From IMG/VR virus record IMGVR_UViG_3300030102_004626, positions 1-39,879 of that record: a DNA stretch of 39,879 nt; one strand, 5' to 3'. The DNA is from a virus. Below, piece after piece: positions 3,459 through 39,879 of the stretch. Position 1 is the first letter of the stretch, and the number at the start of each line of letters is the position of its first letter. The notes beneath the pieces were generated by a model, which had not been told where the DNA came from, did no database searches, and saw only the letters and a program-made list of their open reading frames with translations. The translations under genes were made by a program, and so were the position numbers.

Positions 3459-3542
3459 TGGTGGGGAGAGCTGGAGTCGAACCAGCACAGTGTTAAACGG
3501 CAGATTTACAGTCTGTTGAGCTCACCTATGCTCAGCCTCCCC
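3459..3542 (-). tRNA. tRNA-Tyr (GUA), class II, CCA encoded
   Basis: The minus strand folds as a complete class II tRNA. The acceptor pairs GGGGAGG with the complementary 3' strand, including one G-U. The D stem is GAGC/GCTC. The anticodon loop CTGTAAA gives GUA. There is a long variable arm of about 13 bases, a T stem GCTGG/CCAGC with loop TTCGACT, discriminator A, and an encoded CCA at 3459-3461. A long variable arm is expected for bacterial tRNA-Tyr. It probably supplements host decoding late in infection. Confidence 0.96.
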
Positions 3543-4941: not shown

Positions 4942-5700
4942 TTAAAAAATTGGATCTCCAATTGCATCTTGATTATAATTTTTATCAACATAACCACCAC
5001 CTCTATGCCTATCTTTTGCAAGATTTACATTTGGTTTTGCTTGCTTCTTTTTTAACTCATTTTCAATCCATGCTTTTGCGATTGGATTATTCACTGGTTT
5101 TCTCATTGCTCTCGATACAGTCTTTGCAACCATCTGCAATATATCTTTATCATCAGAAGAATCATTATTTGCAACCAACATTTTATTACCAAAGAACCTA
5201 TGAAATTTTTGAAAATTCTTTTGTACATCACTCCACCCTTGTTTTGCAATATTTGGTGGGACTGATCTTGCACGTTTTCTGTTTCTCTCTAGTGCAGTCT
5301 CTAATGTAGTATTAACAAAAACCATATAAGTCTCATATCCAAGTTCTTGTAATTTAGAAGCTTGAGAAGTTATTTTATCGTAGTCTTTACCTGTACCATC
5401 AATTACCATTCCTAATCGACCATCGATAGCATGGCCTTTTCTTGCACTCGTAACTCTCTTTGCTTTTTTACGTTCTACATCTCTTGGAATCTGCTCTTCA
5501 TCAGGCATTTTCAAAGACAAACCAGCCTTAGTGAGATATCTCTCAAAAGGTTCATCAGAGTTGATGACTTTAAGGCCCAGTCCTGCAAGAGTCTTTCCTA
5601 CTACAAAAGACTTACCAGAGCCTGGGCCTCCTGCTAAGAAGACTGCTTTAAAAATATTGGGATCGTAAATCCCCTCTAGGAGTTGCTGAAATGTCTTCAT
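4942..5700 (-). CDS. P-loop kinase with capsid-targeting-like N-terminus
   Basis: A 252-residue protein. After the leader MKTFQQLLEG it has a Walker A motif (LAGGPGSGKS, about 22-31), a strand ending VINSDEP, a central VIDGTGKDYDK segment, and RNRKRARS, which would serve as an arginine-rich lid. This is the layout of zeta-toxin/polynucleotide-kinase type small-molecule or nucleic-acid kinases. The leader resembles the T4 capsid-targeting sequence and offers an LxE|G prohead-protease site after residue 9. Several proteins at 30-39 kb share the leader, so this kinase may be a head-packaged protein. The substrate is not deducible. A late promoter lies at 5727-5734. Confidence 0.85.
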   Translation of the reverse strand: MKTFQQLLEGIYDPNIFKAVFLAGGPGSGKSFVVGKTLAGLGLKVINSDEPFERYLTKAGLSLKMPDEEQIPRDVERKKAKRVTSARKGHAIDGRLGMVIDGTGKDYDKITSQASKLQELGYETYMVFVNTTLETALERNRKRARSVPPNIAKQGWSDVQKNFQKFHRFFGNKMLVANNDSSDDKDILQMVAKTVSRAMRKPVNNPIAKAWIENELKKKQAKPNVNLAKDRHRGGGYVDKNYNQDAIGDPIF

Positions 5701-5827
5701 TGTTACTCATATAATTACTGTAATCATATTTATAAGTGTCATAATCTTCATTCTGTATGGTTTCGGGTGGGATCGCTGTACGTGATTGGTGCTGGAAAAC
5801 TCGTTTCTGTTTTCTTCTTGCTCGCAT
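5648..5827 (-). CDS. Small basic protein overlapping the kinase gene start
   Basis: A 59-residue frame starting MRARRKQKRVFQHQSRT, with an AGGAG ribosome-binding site seven bases before the ATG. It overlaps the start of the kinase gene by 53 bases in a different frame. The N-terminal third is strongly basic; the remainder is acidic and rich in Tyr, Asp and Asn. The strong binding site supports translation despite the overlap. No family is recognised. It is in the right place to be co-transcribed with the baseplate genes above. Confidence 0.55.
   Translation of the reverse strand: MRARRKQKRVFQHQSRTAIPPETIQNEDYDTYKYDYSNYMSNNEDISATPRGDLRSQYF
5727..5734 (-). promoter_or_regulatory. T4-type late promoter for the P-loop kinase
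   Basis: TATAAATA on the minus strand, 26 bases before the kinase start codon, inside the small basic gene. This suggests late expression of the kinase, which fits packaging into the head. Confidence 0.7.
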
Positions 5828-23041: not shown

Positions 23042-23117
23042 TGGAGCTGATGATAGGAATCGAACCTACGACCTGAAGTTTACAAAACTCCTGCTCTACC
23101 AACTGAGCTACATCAGC
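23042..23117 (-). tRNA. tRNA-Thr (UGU), CCA encoded
   Basis: A complete 76-base cloverleaf on the minus strand. The acceptor is GCTGATG/CATCAGC, the D arm GCTCAGTTGGTAGAGC, the anticodon arm GGAGT with loop TTTGTAA (UGU), and the T arm GTAGG/CCTAT with loop TTCGATT, followed by T and CCA. The first bases of the tRNA include the stop codon of the gene above. Confidence 0.97.
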
Positions 23118-28839: not shown

Positions 28840-29139
28840 TTACTGGAGCGCTCCAAATGTTTGTAACGCTGTCATTGCAAAAGTTAATGCGAGAAGGACT
28901 CCACCCAAAGTGTATTTCCACTTCTCAAGTCCGCCGATATCCTTCTCATTTTCATCTATCTTATCACAAAGTTTTTCAAATGTCAAGTTTATTTCGTCAG
29001 AGATTTCTCTTTTCATGGTACTCATACGAGAATGTACCTCCTTAAAATCTTCTCTATTTTGATTAACGTGCCCTTCAAAAGATTCTGACATTTGTTTGAT
29101 CTGTTCTTTGAGCACTGCAATTTCTGCTTCTACGTTCAT
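28840..29139 (-). CDS. Coiled-coil protein with C-terminal membrane anchor
   Basis: A 99-residue protein. Residues 1-70 are a charged coiled coil (EIAVLKEQIKQMSESFEGHV, MKREISDEINLTFEKLCDKI) and 74-97 a hydrophobic segment (WKYTLGGVLLALTFAMTALQ). The layout resembles XhlA-type proteins associated with phage holins, though the match is only topological. It overlaps the next gene by four bases (ATGA). A sigma70-like promoter lies inside. Confidence 0.7.
   Translation of the reverse strand: MNVEAEIAVLKEQIKQMSESFEGHVNQNREDFKEVHSRMSTMKREISDEINLTFEKLCDKIDENEKDIGGLEKWKYTLGGVLLALTFAMTALQTFGALQ
28958..28986 (-). promoter_or_regulatory. Internal sigma70-like promoter before the primase gene
   Basis: TTGACA (28981-28986), 17 bases, TAAGAT (28958-28963) on the minus strand, within the coiled-coil gene. 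The -35 box is followed by TTTG, as in the other early promoters. It could give separate expression of primase and RNR. Confidence 0.45.
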
Positions 29140-29750
29140 CTAATGGATTTCATAGCAAAGGATTGCATGGCCATGAAACCCTTTGAGTTTTTATTGATCA
29201 TTTCTTTAAACTTAGACTGATTGTCTTTGTTCAAAGCATCATAAACTTTAACCATGGCACTTGCAGTAAACATATCTACAGATGCTGTCTTTTTGTCTTT
29301 AAACTTCACTTTTTGCATCTGTTTATTCTTTACGATATTTCTGAGAACATCCAAAACATCCTCATTGATAGTAATCATATCTTGAGTTTGTTGAAGAACT
29401 TGCTCTTTTATACGAGACAATTTTCCCCACTGTCCACCACCATTTCTGTTGAAACGAATACCCCGAACAGCACCAGTTGTTGCATTTTGAAGAACGATCA
29501 CCCCTTGATGATTTCTTTTAGCCCAATCATAAATTTTCTTTTGATGAGTATCGGCCAGATCTAGATACTTAGACCATCTCTCAAACTTTGTTTTTCCATT
29601 TCTGAATTTGTGAAATACCTCATCAGAGACTTTGAAAGTTTCATACTTTCTTTTTTTCTTACTAGCAGGTATTCCCATATTTGGTGCAAAATCTACACCA
29701 CCGCCTGCAGCAGTCATTTCTTTCATATCTTCTACGATTATCTCAATCAT
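29136..29750 (-). CDS. Conserved phage protein, possibly virion-associated
   Basis: A 204-residue basic protein. It begins MIEIIVEDMKEMTAAGGGVD, with an IVE|D sequence that would fit a prohead-protease site, and continues with GIPASKKKRKYETFKVSDEV and a helical C-terminus (MFTASAMVKVYDALNKDNQS). The family is unknown to me beyond occurrence in related phages. Overlaps with both neighbours put it in a translationally coupled block. The packaged-protein idea is weaker here than for the MKxF proteins. Confidence 0.65.
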   Translation of the reverse strand: MIEIIVEDMKEMTAAGGGVDFAPNMGIPASKKKRKYETFKVSDEVFHKFRNGKTKFERWSKYLDLADTHQKKIYDWAKRNHQGVIVLQNATTGAVRGIRFNRNGGGQWGKLSRIKEQVLQQTQDMITINEDVLDVLRNIVKNKQMQKVKFKDKKTASVDMFTASAMVKVYDALNKDNQSKFKEMINKNSKGFMAMQSFAMKSIR

Positions 29751-30330
29751 TTATATCCTCCAATGAAACGTATATTTTTTTGTTACTTTTTTGATGAATT
29801 ACAGGAAAGATATCTACACCTAAAACTCTGTCAGATGGTGGAGTATCTTCGATTGCTGTTACCTTGTCACCTTTCTTTGCATCTATTTCATCATCATCAG
29901 CTGTAACCATGTCTTTGAGTGTATACTCTCCAGCAGGTAACATATTTCCAAATCCAACCACCTCTTCAGAAATCGAATCTTGGTAGTTAATCATATTGTT
30001 CTCCATCAGATGTTTGGTTATCTGAGGCTCATCCAATCGAATACCATAGTGTTCCCTTAGCAGAAACAGAGCTGTCGCATAAGTTCCTATCTGAGTTCTG
30101 ACTAGAGGAATTTTACTGAGTATCCTTTTGAAGTTGAATACTAGACGATGTAATAGAGTAAATGCACTCTTCTCATCAGATGACTCTACTTTCTTATTAG
30201 TCCTTTTTCCATTCTTATCGATTATTCCTAATTTGTAGGCTTCTTGTTTATCCCAAGGAGTCACTAGTAACTTGAGAAACCTATAAGTTACGAACAAATC
30301 AACTGCACGATTTTCATGTAAAGGAGTCAT
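29743..30330 (-). CDS. Conserved T4-like phage protein of unknown function
   Basis: A 195-residue protein containing FLKLLVTPWDKQEAYKLGII and FTLLHRLVFNFKRILSKIPL, a pattern that recurs in marine T4-like phages next to the gene below 30689. The middle is helical and basic and the C-terminus acidic, with DDDEIDAKKGDKV. It has no catalytic motif. The start overlaps the upstream stop (ATGA), as for most genes of this block. Confidence 0.7.
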   Translation of the reverse strand: MTPLHENRAVDLFVTYRFLKLLVTPWDKQEAYKLGIIDKNGKRTNKKVESSDEKSAFTLLHRLVFNFKRILSKIPLVRTQIGTYATALFLLREHYGIRLDEPQITKHLMENNMINYQDSISEEVVGFGNMLPAGEYTLKDMVTADDDEIDAKKGDKVTAIEDTPPSDRVLGVDIFPVIHQKSNKKIYVSLEDIND

Positions 30331-30689
30331 AACTCTAATAATTTTTGTGTTACCAGTTCATCACTCTTTACATGAGCAAGATCATTCTCTGGCATTATGT
30401 TTAAAAATTCCATAAAACTTTTTAGTGCAGGCCAATGGTCCATCTCAATCTTGAAGAACAGGAGAGTAGATGTGGCTTCTGCACCAAATAAGTTATTCAG
30501 GATTATAATATGATTCAAGAGAAGTCGCTCTTTAAGTACACCAGAGTCTTTATATTTACGAAAAAGTCTCTTGATGTACTTAAATCGCTTCATATCATCG
30601 TAAAATTCATTGATACCTTCACAAGACGGATTGTGATAATGCTTGATCGCATACAACACAATGTTGTCTTTGGTCAAATTGTCGAACAT
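30327..30689 (-). CDS. Conserved T4-like phage protein, DUF7207-like
   Basis: A 120-residue helical protein: YAIKHYHNPSCEGINEFYDD, KRFKYIKRLFRKYKDSGVLK and RLLLNHIIILNNLFGAEATS. These match a widespread small protein of T4-like phages (DUF7207-like). It always seems to accompany structural or prohead genes, but its function is unknown. It is coupled to the gene below by an overlap. Confidence 0.75.
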   Translation of the reverse strand: MFDNLTKDNIVLYAIKHYHNPSCEGINEFYDDMKRFKYIKRLFRKYKDSGVLKERLLLNHIIILNNLFGAEATSTLLFFKIEMDHWPALKSFMEFLNIMPENDLAHVKSDELVTQKLLEL

Positions 30690-30694
30690 GGAAG

Positions 30695-31147
30695 TTAGAT
30701 GTCTTCCTCGTCCATTGTATCTGAATTTCTTACGATCTCTGCTTCGACCATTGATTTTCCATTACCACTTGGAGTGCAAGTCACCATAAGTGAAATACCA
30801 CCTTCAATGTGTCTCGAAATCCCATCATCTTCTTGAAATTCACCATACGGATTATTATCACGATTTACTCCAAAAGCTCCAGCATTATGTCTCATTGCAA
30901 ACATAGTGGTTCCAGACTTATCTAAATCCATCATTTCAAAGTAGTAACCGATCTTACTCAAGTTGGTTTGTAGTCTTTTGACCGCAAGAGTTGGATTCAG
31001 TACTTCCTGTTCTCCAATGGACCCAACATAAGCATTCAAGGCTTCCATTGCTGTCTCAGCATTTGGAAGCATCTCATAATCATCGTATTGTACTTGAGCA
31101 GGAGTAAACTTAGTCGCCTCTTCAAGATGTTGTTTGAATGTCTTCAT
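30695..31147 (-). CDS. Protein with capsid-targeting-like N-terminus
   Basis: A 150-residue protein beginning MKTFKQHLEEATKFTPAQVQ. The MKTFxxxLE start resembles the T4 internal-protein capsid-targeting sequence and offers a protease site after LE or LEE. The rest is a compact mixed domain (YVGSIGEQEVLNPTLAVKRL, IGYYFEMMDLDKSGTTMFAM) with no recognised fold. It may be a head-internal protein. It overlaps the coiled-coil gene above by 26 bases. Confidence 0.7.
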   Translation of the reverse strand: MKTFKQHLEEATKFTPAQVQYDDYEMLPNAETAMEALNAYVGSIGEQEVLNPTLAVKRLQTNLSKIGYYFEMMDLDKSGTTMFAMRHNAGAFGVNRDNNPYGEFQEDDGISRHIEGGISLMVTCTPSGNGKSMVEAEIVRNSDTMDEEDI

Positions 31148-31328
31148 TTCCTTCCTCTATGAGAGAGATGAAGTGGTCACACTGCTGTTCTGCACCCGAA
31201 AGTGCATTCAGATTGTTGACCAACTCCTGTCTCTTAGTATCTAACTGAGTGATTGTCTCTCTCAGTTTGTTTATGTCCTCCTGTATGGCGGACTTTCTTG
31301 TTTGTATCGCTTCAAGCGAAAGTTCCAT
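31122..31328 (-). CDS. Small coiled-coil protein
   Basis: A 68-residue helical protein. EAIQTRKSAIQEDINKLRET and LDTKRQELVNNLNALSGAEQ show the heptad pattern of a coiled coil. It is acidic at the end. The overlap with the following gene and the position between virion-type genes suggest a small assembly or scaffold factor, but nothing more can be said. Confidence 0.6.
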   Translation of the reverse strand: MELSLEAIQTRKSAIQEDINKLRETITQLDTKRQELVNNLNALSGAEQQCDHFISLIEEGNEDIQTTS

Positions 31329-31355
31329 AATGTCTCCATTATATAAGGTTAATTA

Positions 31356-32243
31356 TTAACTAGCGTCTACACCCTTACCATATCCAATGGCATTCCAACG
31401 GCCGTTTGTAAATAGTAAAGTTACAGATTCACCATCTGCATTGAAAACAATTGTAGTATCCGCTGCTGCTCCATAATTTGCAGGAGTGACAGTTGCTGCT
31501 TGACTAGATGATATAGCTTTTGCAACTAGAATCTTTATTTGACCCTGAGTACCATCTGCAAGACTAAAATGACCAGCACTAGTAGTGTTTGTAGCAGTCA
31601 AATGAGCAATCGGAGTAGTTACAGGAATTACAGTTTTAGAACCAGTTGCTCCACCTGTCAGATCGTCAGGGGTTGATGTAAAACCTAACCATCCTGCAAG
31701 ACCAGCAGATGCTCCAGTTGTACCATCAGCCGCAACATCTAGCATATAACTTGCACTTGGATCATTTTTTCCAATACCTACTGAGTGATTTGGGGCATCT
31801 GTATGGACCAAAATTCCTGTATCACTATAGACCTGAAAATCAACCGCGGCCGAGTCTCCGTTGATCTTGACATAGTTCACGTTTCCGTTTCCTGAGTCAT
31901 CTGAAGAATCAACAAAGATTGCTTGTGCAGAATTATTTGACTCTACACGAAAGTCTATGAACTCATTTCCACTTTCATTGACTACAACTGTTGATTCAGC
32001 ACCTCCAGCTGGAGTTGCATTTGGAATGTCTACCTTGAATGCCGAGATTGAAGTTGTAGGTCCAAATTCAAAATTAGATGTACCTACACTGGATACTGGT
32101 GTATCTATTCGAGCAAACAAGTTTGCAAGTGTGATTTTCTTGTTTACTGGTGATGAGCTGAAATCTATAATATGTAACAAGTCTGCAGCTGCTTTACCAG
32201 TACTTGTTAATTCGGTTAAAGCTGTTATCTTTTTATCAGCCAT
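31356..32243 (-). CDS. Virion structural or fibre-like protein
   Basis: A 295-residue beta-rich protein. The N-terminus MADKKITALTELTSTGKAAA is followed by DLLHIIDFSSSPVNKKITLA, a pattern of phage structural and fibre proteins that attach to the particle. The C-terminal domain (AKAISSSQAATVTPANYGAA, VTLLFTNGRWNAIGYGKG) resembles small domains found at the ends of such proteins. Few charged residues, many Ala, Gly, Ser and Thr. A GC hairpin separates it from the gene above. Confidence 0.75.
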   Translation of the reverse strand: MADKKITALTELTSTGKAAADLLHIIDFSSSPVNKKITLANLFARIDTPVSSVGTSNFEFGPTTSISAFKVDIPNATPAGGAESTVVVNESGNEFIDFRVESNNSAQAIFVDSSDDSGNGNVNYVKINGDSAAVDFQVYSDTGILVHTDAPNHSVGIGKNDPSASYMLDVAADGTTGASAGLAGWLGFTSTPDDLTGGATGSKTVIPVTTPIAHLTATNTTSAGHFSLADGTQGQIKILVAKAISSSQAATVTPANYGAAADTTIVFNADGESVTLLFTNGRWNAIGYGKGVDAS

Positions 32244-32268
32244 AATTCTCCTTTAAAATTAATATGAA

Positions 32269-32288
32269 CCCCCCATGTTTCAGGGGGG
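32269..32288 (-). terminator. GC hairpin between two virion genes, possible terminator
   Basis: Six G-C pairs (CCCCCC/GGGGGG) with an 8-base loop, followed on the minus strand only by TT. The lack of a T-run makes it a weak terminator. It may instead regulate the relative levels of the two virion proteins or act as an mRNA stabiliser. Confidence 0.5.
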
Positions 32289-32315
32289 AATTGTACTCTA
32301 GGGACTCTAGATCAA

Positions 32316-32954
32316 TTATGATGAAACTGTAATTGCAACTGCTGATAATCCCGACAATACGAGTGAAGCGGCGACTGTGTTCCCAGCAGCTGCGGCTTCA
32401 GTATCAACTATTGTTCCACTGTTGAGAACAATATTTGATCCACCCAATGTCAGAACATCAGTATTACCTAAACCAGCACTTGTCTTCTCAAACCTCAATT
32501 GGTTTTTTGTCGAACCAGTTGCTGTGTAGGAAAGACGATGTGTACCATATCCTCCACCAGAGGCATTATTGTTGGCAATGTCAACGTAAGGTACACCACC
32601 TGAAGTATCTACTGTTACTTCTTCATCGTATGTGATTTCCACAAGTATTCTTTGTGTTCCATCACCAGCAGTCATATCTGTAGTTGCAGTATTACCTACA
32701 ACAAATCTCATTTTAGTAACTGTAGGAGCTCTTAACCCTGTAGTTGAAGATGTTCCTGCAAGTCCTCTAATTGCAATCAAGATTTCTGGATCTGCATTTG
32801 CATTTCCATTTCCTGAAGCAGGCGTTCCGGCTTTCATAACCCAACCATCATTAGTTGCGTATGAATCACCTCTATTATAATCGGAATTTTCATCCGTTGG
32901 CAGATACTTCGGTTTATTAGTTGCTGAAGCATGTGCTTTTCCCCATAGTGCCAT
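32316..32954 (-). CDS. Virion structural protein with Ig-like segment
   Basis: A 212-residue protein that begins MALWGKAHASATNKPKYLPT, as several small virion proteins of marine T4-like phages do. The middle (QRILVEITYDEEVTVDTSGG, PYVDIANNNASGGGYGTHRL) resembles a bacterial Ig-like or SwmB-type repeat, and the C-terminus is Ala/Gly/Ser-rich. It is the first gene after the late promoter at 32982, consistent with abundant late expression. It may be a decoration or neck protein; the exact role is not resolved. Confidence 0.75.
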   Translation of the reverse strand: MALWGKAHASATNKPKYLPTDENSDYNRGDSYATNDGWVMKAGTPASGNGNANADPEILIAIRGLAGTSSTTGLRAPTVTKMRFVVGNTATTDMTAGDGTQRILVEITYDEEVTVDTSGGVPYVDIANNNASGGGYGTHRLSYTATGSTKNQLRFEKTSAGLGNTDVLTLGGSNIVLNSGTIVDTEAAAAGNTVAASLVLSGLSAVAITVSS

Positions 32955-32981
32955 GGCGATCTCCTTGTAATTTGTTGTTAA

Positions 32982-32989
32982 TATTTATG
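32982..32989 (-). promoter_or_regulatory. T4-type late promoter for virion genes
   Basis: CATAAATA on the minus strand, 28 bases before the ATG at 32954, with an AAGGAG site between. It overlaps the end of the HAD phosphatase gene. Confidence 0.75.
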
Positions 32990-33515
32990 CAAAACCTAAA
33001 TTCTTGAGTCTTGCAATTGTTCTATTTACACTGGTATGGTGGATGCCAATCCCACCCTTCGCTTCCCATTCTCTAATATTCTTCGGGTGGTCATCCACCA
33101 GAATGTTTGGGGCTTGTGTCCGTCCATCCCTTGCAAATTTCTGTTTCTCTGATCTCATGACCAGATTGATTCTACCTCTTGGTAGTGGTTCTACATTTTT
33201 TTTCAACCATTCCTCTTTCCCTTTTGCAGAATTAGGCTCGGTTCTAGCGTATGCAGACATAATGCTAGGTTCATAGGGTTTCAAAAAGTTCCAGAGTTTC
33301 TTAGATCCAGGCATCCACTCCAGATCTCTCCAGAAGTTTTCAGTCTGACTAATCTTGTTCCATCTCTCAGGCTTTGGAACATCACCCAAAGGTTTCCCAT
33401 GTACTTTCATGGCACCCTTCTCAAGATTGACAAGAACACCATCCATGTCTAGATAAACATGAGGTAACTCAGATTTGAGTTCATACTCGACTAGGAAATT
33501 TGAGAGTTGTTTCAT
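32985..33515 (-). CDS. HAD-family phosphatase with capsid-targeting-like N-terminus
   Basis: A 176-residue protein. After MKQLSNFLVEYELKSELPHV it has the HAD nucleophile motif YLDMDGVLVNLE (Asp nucleophile and Asp acid two residues later), then the basic KGKEEWLKKN segment, and motif IV ILVDDHPKNIREWEAKGGIG. This is the layout of 5'-nucleotidases and the phosphatase half of polynucleotide kinase-phosphatase. The leader ends LVE, which fits a prohead-protease site. It is coupled to the gene above (ATGA). Substrate unknown. Confidence 0.85.
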   Translation of the reverse strand: MKQLSNFLVEYELKSELPHVYLDMDGVLVNLEKGAMKVHGKPLGDVPKPERWNKISQTENFWRDLEWMPGSKKLWNFLKPYEPSIMSAYARTEPNSAKGKEEWLKKNVEPLPRGRINLVMRSEKQKFARDGRTQAPNILVDDHPKNIREWEAKGGIGIHHTSVNRTIARLKNLGFA

Positions 33516-33781
33516 CTTCTAGCTTTCATTCCACCAGATTTAACTTTAGTTACAGTAGTTTTGGATCTCTTAGTTGCTCTTGCGATCTCTTCTGGAGATC
33601 TTGCAACTTTCTTTCCTCCTACTATTTTTTGTCTAGCAATACCCTGAGCATTTCTCTGTATACTTTGTTTCTTCACAGCCAACTTTTTTCTCTTCATTTT
33701 TTGGTCAGTTGTCATGTGCTTTCTGATTGGTCCACGTACCACTTTTGTAAGTTCTGCAACCAATTCTGTAAATGTTTTCAT
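33512..33781 (-). CDS. Small basic protein with capsid-targeting-like N-terminus
   Basis: An 89-residue protein with ATG at 33781: MKTFTELVAELTKVVRGPIR. The leader offers LVAE and then the protein becomes strongly basic (KMKRKKLAVKKQSIQRNAQG, TKRSKTTVTKVKSGGMKARR), as expected for a DNA-binding internal head protein. Start and stop overlap both neighbours. Resemblance to T4 internal proteins is in size, charge and leader, not in sequence. Confidence 0.7.
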   Translation of the reverse strand: MKTFTELVAELTKVVRGPIRKHMTTDQKMKRKKLAVKKQSIQRNAQGIARQKIVGGKKVARSPEEIARATKRSKTTVTKVKSGGMKARR

Positions 33782-33969
33782 CAACTCTCTTCTGGATTGA
33801 TAACCACTTTATCTTGTGGTTTCTTAGTAAATGTCTTTTTTCCTGAAACCGGCTCTGGATCTTCACCCTGCTTTGCTTCAGTCCAAAGATTCACTGAACG
33901 ATCTCTTGAGAGAGTATTCATATATGCATTCATCTGTAAGGCTAAATCGTGATCTTGTTCTTTACTCAT
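33781..33969 (-). CDS. Small protein within the head-cargo block
   Basis: The preferred start is ATG at 33969 (MSKEQDHDLALQMNAYMNTL), overlapping the nucleotidyltransferase stop (ATGA); 62 residues. It is polar and has no capsid-targeting-like leader. The C-terminus reads PVSGKKTFTKKPQDKVVINP. The function is unknown, but tight coupling shows it is expressed with the cargo proteins. Confidence 0.6.
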   Translation of the reverse strand: MSKEQDHDLALQMNAYMNTLSRDRSVNLWTEAKQGEDPEPVSGKKTFTKKPQDKVVINPEES

Positions 33970-35207
33970 TGCTTCTTCTCCTTGTTGTATTGAGCCCATG
34001 CGATTGCGTAAGGTGCAGATGGGTCATCGAATTTTTTCTTTAACGCTTTTACTACTTTCTCCTTCCCCGGCGGAGCAACCTCAGGCATCTTCTGATCCAT
34101 GAGGTTTATATATGTTGATAACATAGATGCATAACTCTGTATTTTTAATGGATTCAAACCAGCATCCATCATCTTCTTGTATATCGCAGAAGCGACATTC
34201 ATTGGTAACTTAAACTTTTGTGCCAGTTTAGATACCGATTCTTTAGTCATCTTGACTTTCTCACCAGGCGTAATCTTCTTTGTATGTCTTAGATACTCAG
34301 GAGTGCCTGCTTCATAAGCCTCTCTCCTATACTTTTCCCAAAGGTTCCTATTCTTGAGAAAATGAATAGCATCTGGGAGTTTATTACTCTGACTTTCAAT
34401 CTGCCGAGCATCCTCCAACCAAACCTTGTGTAGAGAAAAATCTTCCTGAACTATGGTAACATAGTTTGTTCCACGTTTAACAACTTCTCCCTTATAACCA
34501 TTCTTCACATCTTCAACCCATTCTCCGATAGTGAATAATAGGTTCTGAAAATATTGCTCTCGTACAAACTCTATATCGTTCATCTCTGATACAGGCTTGA
34601 AGGGTTTGATCTCCCTCGAAATACCCATACCTCTACGAACATCGTTGAACAGTTGAGTACCATCATATCCTTTTGGTAATCCCAACTTGAACGAATCATA
34701 ATCCCCGCTACCAGCCGCAGCTCTCATCTTCGATGCAGACATTCCTGTAACACCCTCTGCATCTGGATCTCGCTCTCCAGCACTAACTACTTTAATCTCT
34801 GAATAACTGTAGTATCCATGCCGTCCATTGACTCCATTATATTTGTCTAAAAGGTTCTGGAAATCATTGACACGATCACTACCTACAACCATGACTAATC
34901 GATCATGATCATTTAAATGTACTGCAACGTCAATTGCAGTTCTCAATGCAGATATAGAATCTTGCCCTCTCATTTCTTTTGGAAACATCTTGGACAAATA
35001 GTGCATCTTCTGAGTATGGGTCAGAGGATTCTTCTTTTTATCCTGTGAGTGACTACCAAAGATATGTGCTTTACCACCCTCTTTTCTTGCAACTCTTGTA
35101 GTTGCTTGTAGTAACTTTTGATGTCCAATCGTAGGTGGATTGAACCTACCGAAAGTAAAGACAGCAGTTTTACCTACTGCCTCTACAAATTGAGAAAACT
35201 TCTTCAT
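33966..35207 (-). CDS. Nucleotidylyltransferase (NMNAT/NadR-like) with capsid-targeting-like N-terminus
   Basis: A 413-residue protein. MKKFSQFVEAVGK is followed by TAVFTFGRFNPPTIGHQKLL, the HxGH-type motif of adenylyl/cytidylyltransferases (TIGH here), then VVGSDRVNDF and GMSASKMRAAA, equivalent to the ISSTxxR motif. So residues 10-190 form a Rossmann nucleotidylyltransferase as in NadR or NadM. Residues 200-413 are a separate helical region ending with PSAPYAIAWAQYNKE. The FVE|A site lies in the leader. The natural substrate could be NMN, but a nucleic-acid or cofactor substrate is also possible. Confidence 0.85.
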   Translation of the reverse strand: MKKFSQFVEAVGKTAVFTFGRFNPPTIGHQKLLQATTRVARKEGGKAHIFGSHSQDKKKNPLTHTQKMHYLSKMFPKEMRGQDSISALRTAIDVAVHLNDHDRLVMVVGSDRVNDFQNLLDKYNGVNGRHGYYSYSEIKVVSAGERDPDAEGVTGMSASKMRAAAGSGDYDSFKLGLPKGYDGTQLFNDVRRGMGISREIKPFKPVSEMNDIEFVREQYFQNLLFTIGEWVEDVKNGYKGEVVKRGTNYVTIVQEDFSLHKVWLEDARQIESQSNKLPDAIHFLKNRNLWEKYRREAYEAGTPEYLRHTKKITPGEKVKMTKESVSKLAQKFKLPMNVASAIYKKMMDAGLNPLKIQSYASMLSTYINLMDQKMPEVAPPGKEKVVKALKKKFDDPSAPYAIAWAQYNKEKKQ

Positions 35208-35611
35208 GTAACTTCTGCGTTTTTCTTTGCTTTCAATTCTGCAGCTCTCTGCGTATGTGCTTTCTTAATGACCTTTGCAAATTTCTTTGCAAGTGCCTTA
35301 TACTTACCACCCATTTTCTTTGCTGCTTGATCTGCTCTTTTTTCAAGTTTTTCTTTCTGGGATACAGAAAGATCTGCAAGATCCTTACCTTTCCCAGCTA
35401 ATTTTTGCATTACAAATTGTCTTGCTCTCTTCATCCCTTTCTTCAAGGCAGCATCTTGAGATAAAGCTTTGAGTTTGTTTTTTTCTTTTCTGAATTTAGT
35501 AGACGCTTTCTTTCCAATGATCTTGAGTCTTCTTGCCATGGCTTTTCTTGTCCCAAGATCAATTTCAGATATTTGATCTACTTCATCTCTAAACTCTTCA
35601 AAAGATTTCAT
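35204..35611 (-). CDS. Basic protein with capsid-targeting-like N-terminus
   Basis: A 135-residue protein: MKSFEEFRDEVDQISEIDLG, then a highly basic helical remainder (RKAMARRLKIIGKKASTKFR, KKMGGKYKALAKKFAKVIKK). The acidic leader followed by a strongly basic body mimics the T4 internal proteins, whose leader is removed by gp21. The body could bind and condense DNA. It is coupled to both neighbours by overlaps. Confidence 0.75.
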   Translation of the reverse strand: MKSFEEFRDEVDQISEIDLGTRKAMARRLKIIGKKASTKFRKEKNKLKALSQDAALKKGMKRARQFVMQKLAGKGKDLADLSVSQKEKLEKRADQAAKKMGGKYKALAKKFAKVIKKAHTQRAAELKAKKNAEVT

Positions 35612-37227
35612 TTGTTCCTCAACAATTTCTTGACTTGTGCATAAAGAGGGGAATCGGTTTCCTCATATTTTGCCATAAGTTTCTTATCCTTTGAAGGCCC
35701 TTTACCCTTCACTGTATCTTGTGCAGGAGTGTGATCTTCTTTTTTCGTATCTTCTTTCTCAATAGCTTTAGAGATTGCTTTTCTCCTTTTGTGAAGATAC
35801 TTATCCGTAGAATCCGTATCACCATCATTGTCAATGTCTTTATCTTTACGATCCTTGAACTTCTTCTTGACAGCTTTTGGATCTACCTTATCCATTCCAT
35901 CTCCATCATCAGACTTATCATTGGATGCATCTTCTTTTTTAGTTCTACCTTCAACGACTTGTTTAATGGTTTCTTCGATATTCATATTTTCCTTTTCTGT
36001 TTCCTCAATGTACATATTGAGTTCAAATCTTTTGTTGTCTAAATTGGCAACCTGAACATGAAGTTTTTGTTTCTTGTTGGTTCCCAAGATATATTTGTTT
36101 GTCTTTCCAGACGATGGTTTCTTTGGTCCAGTTGCGACCTTATTATCGATCTCATCTGGATCTACTATAAATCCTCTCTTCTTTGCATGGGCGTATGCGT
36201 GTTGCATTGCAGCTGAGAATGTCTTGTGATAGAGTTCGTAGTCAGCCTCATTGATGGTTTCCTCTTTCATAGGTTTCATTCCAAGTTTCTCACGATAAAC
36301 ATTCACTTGTTTGATTAACTCTTTCTGTTTTGGTGAATTTGGCATGGCTTTCATCGCCTTGGTTGTGAGTTTCATCATCATTGCTTTATCACTTTCTTCA
36401 ACATGATCAACTGCACCACATTCACCACAATGCTCGTTCATCATCTCTTCACCCATCATTTTCTCAAGTTCTTCTTTGTCCTTTGCATCTAACTCAGCTT
36501 CTTTCTTTTTCATCACACCATACTTTTTCAAAAAACCCTTCGTAACTTTATCAATCTTTTTCTGATCGGGTTTGTCACCTTTTTGGATCTTACCACCCTT
36601 TGCTAAGAATGCTTTGATTTCTTTTTCATAGTCAGATTTCTTTTCGTCAATCTCAACTTCTTCACCCATCGCTTTCATAAGGTAATCTCTTGGATCTGTG
36701 TCCAAAGTTTTGATGAATTTCATTGCACCTGCTTTATCACCTTTCTTCAGCATTGCAGCCGCTTTCATCATATCTTTTTTGTCAATGCCTCCATGTTTTT
36801 TTGCATAGGTTTCGATGTCATCTGCAGCCATCTTCATCTGTAGTGCCATGCTTTCTTTCATCGACTTCTCTAAGTCATCAGCTTGTCCTGCATGAGCTTG
36901 ACTTGCTTTCTTCAGCATCTTGACTACTTTTTTGACCACTGGTTTGTCTTCGTCATCCAAAGCTTCTTTGACAGGTTTTCCACCCTTGGAAATAATTCCA
37001 TTCATTCCTTCTTTCTTGACTTGTGCAAGAAACTTCTTGGCATCTTCCAAAGACATAAACTTACTGACCTTAATTGGGCCCTTCTTTGAAGAAGCATACT
37101 TGACCTCAAACTCAGGTTTTGCTTCCTGAAGGTCTGGTGTGATTCCGTCAACAAAATCGACTTTACGAACACCGACTTGTTCTCTAACTTCTTGGACTGC
37201 TTCTGTCCAACTTTTTGAATATCTCAT
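35608..37227 (-). CDS. Prohead core-like polyprotein, Lys/Glu-rich
   Basis: A 539-residue protein with few hydrophobic cores and long Lys/Glu/Ala/Met stretches. Sequences that fit the T4 gp21 protease rule (L/I/V-x-E before A or G) occur at LQE|A (35), VKE|A (88), INE|A (327) and VVE|G (426), suggesting cleavage into several pieces. Residues 462-475 read DKDIDNDGDTDSTD, an EF-hand or dockerin-like calcium site. A GNC-like HCGEC pair lies at 266-270. Scaffold or core identity is inferred from composition, sites and context. Confidence 0.65.
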   Translation of the reverse strand: MRYSKSWTEAVQEVREQVGVRKVDFVDGITPDLQEAKPEFEVKYASSKKGPIKVSKFMSLEDAKKFLAQVKKEGMNGIISKGGKPVKEALDDEDKPVVKKVVKMLKKASQAHAGQADDLEKSMKESMALQMKMAADDIETYAKKHGGIDKKDMMKAAAMLKKGDKAGAMKFIKTLDTDPRDYLMKAMGEEVEIDEKKSDYEKEIKAFLAKGGKIQKGDKPDQKKIDKVTKGFLKKYGVMKKKEAELDAKDKEELEKMMGEEMMNEHCGECGAVDHVEESDKAMMMKLTTKAMKAMPNSPKQKELIKQVNVYREKLGMKPMKEETINEADYELYHKTFSAAMQHAYAHAKKRGFIVDPDEIDNKVATGPKKPSSGKTNKYILGTNKKQKLHVQVANLDNKRFELNMYIEETEKENMNIEETIKQVVEGRTKKEDASNDKSDDGDGMDKVDPKAVKKKFKDRKDKDIDNDGDTDSTDKYLHKRRKAISKAIEKEDTKKEDHTPAQDTVKGKGPSKDKKLMAKYEETDSPLYAQVKKLLRNK

Positions 37228-37234
37228 GTGACTC

Positions 37235-38452
37235 CTATTTGTCCCAATTCTTTATGGCTGTAAAATTATTAAATGAAAATTCTAGTCTATCAACTAGTTT
37301 GACAGCCCTCTGGGAACTGTCTGCGACAACATACCCTTCGGGCGATGTAACTTTAAATCCGTCTTTAGTTTTGATGAATGTACTCATTCCTAACTGTTTT
37401 ATACTATTTAACTTTTTCACGATTTTCATCTTTGCATCAACAATATGCATCATAAAAGTCGAAACTGCAACCATGTTTGAAGTATGTTTTCGCAGTTCCT
37501 TGAAGAAGGCTTCTTTTCTTTGATTCCACTGTTTCTGTGATTTCTCAGTCTTCTTCGTGGCTGTAATCTTTACAAATGCATCATGCACAAATTTAAAGTA
37601 TTCTGCAATATGCATTCTAGGGTTTGTAACTGTCTTACCCTGTCTTATCAAAGAATTATCGTAGGTCTTCCATTGTGCAGAAGCAGGTAAAGTCTCCTGC
37701 AAAGTTGCAAAATCTCTGATCTTCTTTGAATTAATCTGTCTAAACACTTTTCCTGCTTCAGACAGATGTTTCGTCACAGCAGCTGTCTCTGCACCTGTGA
37801 ACTTTACTGTACCTGACAAATCCTTGTATTGAGCATTCGTATGCCACACTGAAGGAACTTGTTTAAGTGGTTGATCCATTCCAAATGAGGCCGTCATACC
37901 CTCCAGTGTTTCACCCTTATATGTTGTGTGCCATACGATACCGACCTTGGACTTCGAGATTTTACGACCTATCTCCGAATCCTTAGGCACTGCATACATT
38001 ATAGTATTGGGCTGGAAAGTAATGTGATCATCTATCTCCGAACCCAATGTGGATTTTAAATATAAAAGATCTCCTTGAATAACATTCTTGATACCTAACT
38101 TAGAAAACTCTGTAAGTGCGACCTTGAACATATCTCCAAGATATCCCCCAAGGTCAATGTCAGATGCTTTCTTGTAAAGAATCGGATTCTTGTTGAATAC
38201 TGATTTCTTCGCAACAAAGAACTGATTATCTGAAGGATCTATTCCTGCAAATATCGCAGGAGCTCCATCCCACTTGACACTCATGTTTACTGATGATTTT
38301 GACTCACCAGCAAGCATATCTCGTAGAGACTGAATGAAATTGATTGCGGCTCTTCCACCCTCTACACCATTATTTAGGATCTCATCTTCAATATGTTCAA
38401 GATGTAGGTTCTTGCCTGGTGCCTCTACAAGATAATCTCTAAAATTTAACAT
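37235..38452 (-). CDS. ATP-dependent ligase-like nucleotidyltransferase with capsid-targeting-like N-terminus
   Basis: The preferred start is ATG at 38452 (MLNFRDYLVEAPGKNLHLEH); a GTG four codons earlier is in frame. Of 405 residues, 57-70 read SVKWDGAPAIFAG, matching ligase motif I (KxDG, Lys60 as nucleotide acceptor), and 124-131 VIQGDLLY resembles motif III/IV. FFVAKKSVFNKNP and VGIVWHTTYKGET fit further strands of the fold. The family is known in T4-like phages only as uncharacterised (DUF6267-like). The LVE|A site in the leader points to packaging. It may be an RNA or DNA end-joining enzyme. Confidence 0.75.
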   Translation of the reverse strand: MLNFRDYLVEAPGKNLHLEHIEDEILNNGVEGGRAAINFIQSLRDMLAGESKSSVNMSVKWDGAPAIFAGIDPSDNQFFVAKKSVFNKNPILYKKASDIDLGGYLGDMFKVALTEFSKLGIKNVIQGDLLYLKSTLGSEIDDHITFQPNTIMYAVPKDSEIGRKISKSKVGIVWHTTYKGETLEGMTASFGMDQPLKQVPSVWHTNAQYKDLSGTVKFTGAETAAVTKHLSEAGKVFRQINSKKIRDFATLQETLPASAQWKTYDNSLIRQGKTVTNPRMHIAEYFKFVHDAFVKITATKKTEKSQKQWNQRKEAFFKELRKHTSNMVAVSTFMMHIVDAKMKIVKKLNSIKQLGMSTFIKTKDGFKVTSPEGYVVADSSQRAVKLVDRLEFSFNNFTAIKNWDK

Positions 38453-39470
38453 TGGTATTGACACTCATCTCAGGTTCAAATTCCAAAAATTCTATAAGAT
38501 TTCTATATGATTTTTTTACAAACCTTTTTATCTTCAGAAAAAGTTTTTTGACAAAAGATACTAAACCTCGTATCATTCCTTTTACTTTATCCAAAATTCC
38601 CTCAGTCAAAACTTGACCTTCGTATGGGGCAAATCCCTCATCAAGCTTATTCACAATCAAACCTACTACAGACCAATATCTGTATTCACCAGTTTTTACT
38701 CCACGTTTTTTTACTGATGTGGTTTTGAATCTTACAGAGGGATTCATTTTTCTAGCAACATGAGACACATAGTCTTTATCACTTGTGGGAACAAAATTTA
38801 CTTTATTTCCATCCCAAGATGTTGTCAAAAACCAATCTGCCGTTCCTTCGTTACCACCAAATTTTACCTCTCCTGACATTGCTTCGTATGCAAATGCATC
38901 TGCAAAATCTGGATTGGTATTAAAATATGATTGCAAATCTGTTTTGAAAAGTTTATGAGCTGCATTTGCAGTCATCACTGCTTTGTCTTTTGCATCTTTA
39001 ATTGCTTGATCTAAATTTGATGCAGCCACGCTGGATGGTGCTAAGTTATTCACCATATCCTCAAGAGGTTTAACGAACTTATCTTCTACCACTCCAACCT
39101 TATCTACTGCTGTGTAAAATGTAGCTCTTGATTCATTTCTCCCCCCACTCATCAGTTGAGCAGATGGTCCAGATTTCAATGAAATTTTATACCTACCTAT
39201 TTTTATATCTGTTTTGGGAGTTTTAGTTGCTGCTGGGACTTTATCTGGTTTCCAATATTCAGACCACTTAGATGAGACTTGAAGTTGAGATGCACCTAAC
39301 ACCTCTGCTTTACCAGTTACACCTTTCATTTTGAGAAATTCAACTACCTTTTCTGCACCCTGTCTCATGTATTCAGTATCGTAAGTGCCATTCCAAACAC
39401 CAACGATAGCTTCTTCCATATCCTCACCAGTGCTTCTGCCCTCTGAGATATATTGTTTGAATGTTTGCAT
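38439..39470 (-). CDS. Possible PD-(D/E)xK nuclease with capsid-targeting-like N-terminus and cationic tail
   Basis: A 343-residue protein beginning MQTFKQYISEGRSTGED, with an ISE|G site at residue 10. Residues 86-110 hold TDIKIGRYKISLKSGPSAQL, where Asp88 and Ser97-x-Lys99 fit a PD-(D/E)xK nuclease core followed by QLMSGG, seen in some restriction-like enzymes. A second fitting site LTE|G at 290 precedes a strongly basic amphipathic segment (291-329, about eleven Lys/Arg against two acidic). The nuclease call is tentative. It is the first gene after the late promoter at 39551. Confidence 0.7.
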   Translation of the reverse strand: MQTFKQYISEGRSTGEDMEEAIVGVWNGTYDTEYMRQGAEKVVEFLKMKGVTGKAEVLGASQLQVSSKWSEYWKPDKVPAATKTPKTDIKIGRYKISLKSGPSAQLMSGGRNESRATFYTAVDKVGVVEDKFVKPLEDMVNNLAPSSVAASNLDQAIKDAKDKAVMTANAAHKLFKTDLQSYFNTNPDFADAFAYEAMSGEVKFGGNEGTADWFLTTSWDGNKVNFVPTSDKDYVSHVARKMNPSVRFKTTSVKKRGVKTGEYRYWSVVGLIVNKLDEGFAPYEGQVLTEGILDKVKGMIRGLVSFVKKLFLKIKRFVKKSYRNLIEFLEFEPEMSVNTNVKF

Positions 39471-39550: not shown

Positions 39551-39558
39551 TATTTATA
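39551..39558 (-). promoter_or_regulatory. T4-type late promoter for the head-cargo block
   Basis: TATAAATA on the minus strand, directly after the helicase gene. The leader of about 70 bases contains a GGGAAC/GTTCCC helix (39488-39525). The promoter should drive the genes from 39470 down, as far as coupling extends. Confidence 0.75.
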
Positions 39559-39879
39559 TTAATTGAACTTCCAATCGGTGGTATCTAAGGCTTTATCGAA
39601 GGCAGGAGTATCATCTTGACCAGAATCTAGAATGTCTTCTTGTGCAGACTGTTCACAATCATACAACTTCATTCTCGCTCTATCGATTCCGACAACGAAC
39701 TTTTTGTTCTTCGTTGGGTCATTGTACCGATTTTTGAGTTGCTTAACGAGAATCTGATTAAGTTGTTCCAACTCTTCAGTCTGGATGAGAGCGAACATGA
39801 AGTCCGCTGTAGCAGGAAGACCAAAGCTCTCACTGGTATCCTCCAATCCGATATCAGAATTTTGATATCCCGAGCGAGT
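39559..39879 (-). CDS. gp41: Replicative DNA helicase gp41, C-terminal part
   Basis: The frame enters from the right edge. It reads TRSGYQNSDIGLEDTSESFG, LPATADFMFALIQTEELEQL and NQILVKQLKNRYNDPTKNKK, then FVVGIDRARMKLYDCEQSAQ. This is the C-terminal RecA-like part of the T4 gp41/DnaB-type helicase: arginine finger region, sensor strand and the conserved QLKNRYNDP. About 106 residues are present and the N-terminal two thirds lie outside the window. The acidic tail (ILDSGQDDTPAFDKA) is typical. Confidence 0.87.
   Translation of the reverse strand, partial: TRSGYQNSDIGLEDTSESFGLPATADFMFALIQTEELEQLNQILVKQLKNRYNDPTKNKKFVVGIDRARMKLYDCEQSAQEDILDSGQDDTPAFDKALDTTDWKFN

Follow-up and report, generated by a model that had tools for sequence, protein, structure and literature searches.

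Bacteriophage T4 directs small internal proteins (IPs) into its head by a short N-terminal capsid-targeting sequence (CTS). In IPIII the first 10 residues suffice; amber suppression maps targeting mainly to residues 4 and 7 and processing to residues 8 and 10, and the propeptides of the IPs are cut by the protease gp21, for which the published rule is L/I-x-E (PMC9026906). IPI, IPII and IPIII inhibit GmrSD restriction enzymes (PMC12373910). In cyanophages, an NMNAT/cytidylyltransferase has been reported in the virions of S-SM1 and S-CBWM1; no targeting signal is named in the accessible parts of those reports. Here we analyse a 39,879-base fragment of a marine T4-like phage from IMG/VR, record IMGVR_UViG_3300030102_004626 (the whole record, called the window below), in which eight proteins with different bodies begin with one short leader. 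This leader is very probably a CTS of the T4 type. Since tagged proteins occur in published virion proteomes of related phages, the phage probably injects ready-made enzymes with its DNA.

Results

A common leader on eight proteins

The nearest isolates by protein similarity are Methylophilales phage Melnitz, Pelagibacter phage HTVC008M and T4-like cyanophages, all filed under Kyanoviridae. T4-like genes for tail and baseplate are present in the window along with other core genes, and its DUF6267 protein is 58% identical to the Melnitz counterpart. A nucleotide search of phage records with the window gave no match. Proteins are named below by the lower coordinate of their genes.

A sequence-only reading of the window, which preceded this analysis, had proposed that eight proteins share a leader. 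All eight N-termini were confirmed at their coordinates, all on the minus strand (Table 1). The leader of 33512 begins at the second Met, and that of 37235 at the fifth codon of a GTG-started open reading frame. The interval 30695-39470, put forward as the leader set, holds seven of the leader proteins and also 35608, which is leaderless, and the proposal was amended to that extent.

The 14 leaders used to build a position-specific matrix all came from the window and Melnitz; T4 and the cyanophages were left out. In T4, 3 of 258 genes scored at least 8 bits, and these were ipIII, ipII and ipI, the three internal virion proteins; a matrix free of T4 data thus retrieved exactly the genes whose CTS the leader had been said to resemble. 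The fourth-best T4 match (6.1 bits, MLKEQLIAEA) is the start of the gene at 104117-104926 of NC_000866 (our locus L193), directly upstream of gp23, a position which we take to be that of scaffold gene 22.

Across six complete genomes (T4, Melnitz, HTVC008M and three cyanophages), 1.0-3.0% of gene starts reached 8 bits, compared with none of about 3,600 internal 40-codon blocks. The search of relatives for the motif that the earlier reading had suggested gave the same picture. In 160 IMG/VR loci, fetched via the DUF6267 and 38439 proteins, 246 of 1903 gene starts (12.9%, a count inflated by orthologues) but only 14 of 5733 internal blocks (0.24%) reached this score, an enrichment of about 50-fold over internal starts, and the leader was found on 38 body clusters. 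The leader is real, and the enrichment of gene starts over internal blocks argues that it is not a product of chance.

For most unrelated leader proteins tested, profile alignments with the 38439 family covered only about residues 1-30. Relatives of the DUF6267 protein with a readable N-terminus have [F/L]xx[hydrophobic/H/T][L/I/V]xE, or something close to it, immediately ahead of a conserved KNxH body start. Apart from position 4 (F or L), position 7 (mostly aromatic or hydrophobic), position 8 (L, I or V) and an E near position 10, their leader is free to vary. Among kinase relatives, which were chosen by their bodies, 72 of 79 have a leader of the MKx[F/Y/L]..L..EG type (for example MKTFDELQEGV, MKSFHELQEGV and MKQFKQIIQEGV) followed immediately by YDPxIFK. 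As read from these alignments, the conserved leader positions are those mapped in T4 IPIII. In one IMG/VR locus (protein L072_1455) the leader, MEKFKSFITEA, stands on a RimK-like ATP-grasp and Zn_protease-like protein (Pfam); Melnitz too has RimK-like genes. We had also considered that several leader proteins might be homologous nucleases sharing SLKxG-like motifs, an idea dropped when profile alignment gave partial support for L021_941 only.

Detection in virions of relatives

Published mass spectrometry of virions was used for three cyanophages: S-CREM2 (52 of 219 genes detected; PMC10665884, Table 3), S-SZBM1 (30 proteins, a shallow proteome; PMC9146016) and S-SCSM1 (48 genes flagged as virion protein in GenBank, compared with 45 in its paper). 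The leader proteins detected in S-CREM2 are the S-adenosylmethionine (SAM) hydrolase gp6, gp13, the APH-like kinase gp14, gp136 and the cytidylyltransferase gp154, whose leader reads MKNFSSFLTE. Five of the six S-CREM2 matches to the matrix at 6 bits or more were detected (gp6, gp14, gp15, gp136 and gp154, but not gp16; p=0.0032, or p=2.4e-4 without the 24 named structural proteins). With 1/3 in S-SZBM1 and 1/2 in S-SCSM1, the pooled figure was 7/11 compared with 2.2 expected (p=0.0015); the 6-bit threshold is one of four computed, and at 10 bits the pooled figure was 4/7 (p=0.02). A loose regular expression for the leader proved unspecific (10 matches in S-CREM2, 5 detected), and the matrix, trained without cyanophage data, was used instead.

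Two families form a natural control. The homologues of nucleotidyltransferase 33966 carry the leader and were detected in the virions of all three cyanophages, whereas the DUF6267 homologues of the same phages start at or near the body, are leaderless and were detected in none (0/3). Nearly all of the S-SCSM1 block surrounding the NMNAT gene (89-93, 95 and 97) carries the virion-protein flag.

Several side observations may be recorded here. The virion-detected S-SCSM1_95 and protein 32316 of the window both start with MALWG, and a profile search made no link between them. In S-CREM2 a late-promoter operon, gp15-gp14-gp13-gp12 (OR473000, 7704-13331; our locus L004), is virion-detected throughout. 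Its last gene product, gp12, resembles Cas9 and has the leader-like sequence LRFASFMAEA at residue 17; it is a possible packaged Cas9. Near the terminase large subunit gene, S-SZBM1 (191; L010) and S-SCSM1 (30; L016) encode a small conserved leader protein, MK[ST]FK[SQ]F[LM]SESVNISGDFNGNLY.

Cleavage sites and late-promoter motifs

The earlier reading held that the leader ends fit the gp21 rule. Five of the eight fit it strictly (LLE, LEE, LVE, LVE and ISE). A gp21 gene (Peptidase_S77) is present in all five complete relatives (Melnitz, HTVC008M, S-CREM2, S-SZBM1 and S-SCSM1) and in T4. T4 gp23 is cut after residue 65, at SFLTE↓A (PMC9026906). The candidate sites of gp23 in the relatives are AFLSE↓A (Melnitz), GLLTE↓A (S-CREM2) and SFLAE↓A (S-SCSM1), assigned by alignment to the T4 site, together with GILTE↓A and AFLGE↓I. 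These candidate L-x-E sites are similar in sequence to the ends of leaders, FLSE↓A, FLTE↓A and YLVE↓A among them.

The late-promoter-like motif TATAAATA precedes both the block and the distant kinase gene (Table 1). Taken alone it is not rarer than chance (5 in the window compared with 2.4 expected). Its recurrence in relatives adds weight: in Melnitz it is found before the orthologue of the first cargo gene (at -47) and before gp18, gp22, gp23 and gp48 (at -39 to -63), and 3 of the 12 sites in the S-CREM2 genome head leader units. It does not occur within 150 nt of the HTVC008M cargo operon, and the promoter argument is therefore not universal. The retrieval of the T4 ip genes, leader enrichment in cyanophage virions, gp21 in relatives and these motifs speak for the head-packaged enzyme set that had been proposed.

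Bodies of the leader proteins

The body assignments made earlier (kinase, HAD phosphatase, nucleotidyltransferase, ligase-like enzyme and possible nuclease) agree with our searches, the first two through Pfam, the third through Pfam and PHROGs, the fourth through motifs and weak fold matches and the fifth through one fold match. PADLOC and NCBIfam gave no firm function for the bodies, and PDB sequence searches found no match for the DUF6267 protein, 38439 or the nucleotidyltransferase, and for the kinase weak adenylate-kinase/Zeta matches only.

Table 1. Features of the window (bits, matrix score of the leader)
Feature	Coordinates	Strand	Remarks
tRNA-Tyr(gta)	3459-3542
P-loop kinase (Zeta-toxin/AAA_33 type), leader protein	4942-5700	-	MKTFQQLLEG start; outside main block; PF06414 E=2.3e-11
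Leader of kinase	5674-5700	-	9 codons; ends L-L-E then G; 20.4 bits
TATAAATA, late-promoter-like	5727-5734	-	about 26 nt upstream of kinase gene
tRNA-Thr(tgt)	23042-23117
Leader protein, body without assigned function	30695-31147	-	MKTFKQHLEEA start; orthologues in Melnitz and HTVC008M; leader in 8/9 relatives
Leader of 30695	31118-31147	-	ends L-E-E then A; 24.2 bits
HAD-type 5'-nucleotidase, leader protein	32985-33515	-	MKQLSNFLVE start; PF06941 NT5C E=6e-9; phrog_2643 E=9.5e-26
Leader of HAD protein	33486-33515	-	ends L-V-E; 16.8 bits
Leader protein, small K/R-rich body	33512-33781	-	MKTFTELVAE start; single relative (L199)
Leader of 33512	33752-33781	-	ends V-A-E
Nucleotidyltransferase, leader protein	33966-35207	-	MKKFSQFVEA start; PF01467; phrog_3041/395
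Leader of nucleotidyltransferase	35181-35207	-	9 codons; ends F-V-E then A; 21.4 bits
Leader protein, small K/R-rich body	35204-35611	-	MKSFEEFRDE start; homologues in Melnitz and HTVC008M; leader in 34/51 of cluster
Leader of 35204	35582-35611	-	ends RDE; 16.5 bits
Charged protein, 539 aa, no canonical leader	35608-37227	-	MRYSKSWTEAVQEV start; orthologues in Melnitz and HTVC008M
DUF6267 leader protein	37235-38464	-	MLNFRDYLVEA start; PF19782 E=1.5e-96
Leader of DUF6267 protein	38423-38452	-	10 codons; ends L-V-E then A; leader in 78/129 of cluster
Nuclease-like leader protein	38439-39470	-	MQTFKQYISEG start; candidate PD-(D/E)XK body (TPKTDIKIG..ISLKSG)
Leader of 38439	39441-39470	-	10 codons; ends I-S-E then G; 23.7 bits; leader in 40/87 of cluster
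TATAAATA, late-promoter-like, heads cargo operon	39551-39558	-	about 80 nt upstream of 38439-39470 gene

The kinase exceeds the Pfam cut-off for both Zeta_toxin and AAA_33 and matches polynucleotide kinase in PHROGs (E=1e-6). By its conserved motif (GRFNPPxxGH type, in six sequences) and a Pfam score of 22 bits against a cut-off of 21, the 33966 body belongs to the NMNAT/cytidylyltransferase family. In the DUF6267 protein KWDG, QGDL, PEGYV and AVKLVDR, assigned by eye, follow the motif order of covalent nucleotidyltransferases (DNA/RNA ligases), and residues K64, D66, G67, Q130, G131, D132, E376, G377 and K389 are invariant in 33 sequences. The list of fold matches to its AlphaFold2 model (predicted local distance difference test, pLDDT, 78) is crowded with DNA and RNA ligases, none with E below 0.2. 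From these motifs and weak matches, we describe the body as a ligase-like nucleotidyltransferase.

For 38439 (pLDDT 73, predicted template modelling score 0.68) the top PDB fold match is the restriction endonuclease HinP1I (E=3.5e-4, probability 0.99, but template modelling score 0.29-0.36). D88, S97 and K99 are invariant in 30 relatives, and S97-x-K99 lacks the usual acidic residue before K. This one fold match makes the body a candidate PD-(D/E)XK-like nuclease. For both proteins the leader is modelled with low confidence, as a tail with a pLDDT of about 30-34. Fusion proteins link some of the bodies: kinase and nucleotidyltransferase are joined in a three-member cluster that includes a protein of locus L099, and phrog_455 joins DUF6267 with the nucleotidyltransferase. 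The kinase, DUF6267 and nucleotidyltransferase functions are therefore probably linked. In HTVC008M the kinase gene adjoins the DUF6267 and NMNAT genes.

The single relative of 33512 is 85% identical and has the leader, and the gene is probably real, with a narrow spread. None of 21 relatives of the leaderless 35608 scored as a leader. A second conserved N-terminal pattern, RYxKxMxEAxxEV-like, occurs on the large charged block protein (window 35608-37227, L001 17131-18519 and L014 9429-10547) and is possibly another targeting signal. The block genes 29136, 29743, 30327, 31356 and 32316 (window 29136-32954) have orthologues in Melnitz and HTVC008M. Upstream of the block, the gene at 39559-39879 is read as a putative replicative helicase, from its place beside a DnaB-like helicase in Melnitz.

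Discussion

We consider it quite likely that the leader acts as a T4-type CTS on enzymes that are made late, cut by gp21, held in the head and delivered with the DNA. The tagged enzymes would be synthesized late in infection from TATAAATA promoters, and leader residues 4 and 7 would dock them in the prohead core, as in T4 IPIII. gp21 would then cut behind the glutamate that is residue 9 or 10 of the leader and release the intact body in the head, and the DNA would be packaged around the freed enzymes. At the next infection they would leave with the DNA, to work on nucleic acids or nucleotides ahead of phage gene expression. We infer cleavage, location in the head, injection and the job of the cargo from different sources: packaging is supported by the relatives, cleavage by the sequence of the sites, and injection by analogy with the T4 IPs and Alt.

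Alternatively, the leader might dock proteins that serve as assembly factors or as passive filler of the core, present in the head without being delivered in active form. An effect of IPIII on head assembly is documented in T4 (PMC9026906). The 6.1-bit score of the T4 gene at the presumed gene 22 position suggests that a core protein may have a leader-like N-terminus. However, the bodies retain the enzyme motifs KWDG, GGPGSGKS and GRFNPPxxGH, which filler would not need, and in T4 the internal proteins, like Alt, are ejected from the head to act inside the cell; we regard this explanation as improbable. We give little credence to ordinary late cytosolic enzymes whose N-terminus has another role or reflects common ancestry, with the detections by mass spectrometry due to contamination. 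Virions purified in caesium chloride can include contaminants in such analyses, the virion proteins listed for S-SCSM1 include a translational repressor, and some leader proteins were undetected. Yet the leader predicts detection in the pooled proteomes, the leaderless DUF6267 relatives were undetected, and the matrix retrieves ipI to ipIII of T4. Nor does whole-gene common descent fit different bodies that are alike in their first residues only.

A short start such as MKxFxxFLxE could also arise by chance as low complexity in AT-rich genomes, and shuffled N-termini indeed give about 0.25-0.8 matches of at least 6 bits in each cyanophage genome. The enrichment over internal starts, the conservation in orthologues selected by their bodies and the T4 result refute this explanation, to which we assign hardly any weight.

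Several observations weigh against CTS-directed packaging and delivery. Three leader ends, in 33512 (VAE), 33966 (FVE) and 35204 (RDE), miss the L/I-x-E rule, and there the earlier claim did not hold. No prohead protease gene (Peptidase_S77) was found in the 39.9-kb record, which is a fragment and not a complete genome; a lack of the gene there is not the genome-wide lack that the earlier reading took as refuting. The HTVC008M leaders are degenerate, with 2 genes at 8 bits or more. The leader is rare among relatives of the HAD protein (2/27). The leader proteins 191 and 192 of S-SZBM1, for which the proteome is shallow, and 30 of S-SCSM1, all of them small, were undetected. The window's own leaders were used to train the matrix, and the scores of the window and Melnitz are thus not independent. 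Finally, the virion evidence comes from relatives and not from the phage of the window, and purified virions may hold contaminants.

As to the job of the cargo, kinase, phosphatase and ligase together recall the healing and sealing of ends, and kinase with NMNAT recalls NadR and the recovery of NAD+. The evidence does not choose between end repair and NAD+ recovery. A broader idea, which we put forward tentatively and think rather doubtful, is that Kyanoviridae and their relatives preload their heads with a coordinated set of T4-CTS-tagged enzymes, one kit here and other bodies elsewhere. If so, the kinase, phosphatase and ligase-like enzyme of this kit would heal and seal RNA or DNA ends cut by the host, or a NadR-like kinase and the NMNAT would restore NAD+ drained by host defence; in other members the bodies behind this tag would include a SAM hydrolase, a protein kinase, an ATP-grasp/protease protein and, probably, Cas9.

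T4-like phages abound in the sea, and papers repeatedly report unexpected virion enzymes (NMNAT, SAM hydrolase, kinase, Cas9) for which no reason is given; the tag would supply one. A readable tag would predict packaged proteins from sequence, turning hypothetical genes into candidate injected effectors, and would allow testing of what a phage needs in the cell ahead of its first transcript. For the loading of proteins into phage heads, it points to new leaders.

CTS packaging in T4, leader-based detection of ip genes in T-even phages and NMNAT in cyanophage virions are known already. In the literature searched, which excluded most subscription papers, we found none that describes a CTS in Kyanoviridae or cyanophages or links it to the virion NMNAT. 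Almost every block gene has an orthologue in Melnitz and HTVC008M, with a similar gene order, and the Melnitz leaders are as strong as those of the window; the two phages differ from the window in sequence (about 40-60% identity) and in the kinase gene, which sits elsewhere in each. The virion NMNAT/cytidylyltransferases of cyanophages S-SM1 (T4-GC190), S-CBWM1, S-SZBM1, S-SCSM1 and S-CREM2 are homologous to 33966, and the three sequences examined all have the leader. T4 Alt, an ADP-ribosyltransferase, is a head-packaged, gp21-processed enzyme that is injected into the host (PMC9026906), like the cargo proposed here; it was not among the T4 genes retrieved at 8 bits or more. Like the window proteins, IPI, IPII and IPIII have unrelated bodies behind a leader some 10 residues long, hydrophobic at positions 4, 7 and 8 and with E at 9 or 10. 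In contrast to the small T4 IPs, the window bodies are mostly enzymes, encoded in Kyanoviridae by one late operon and a distant gene.

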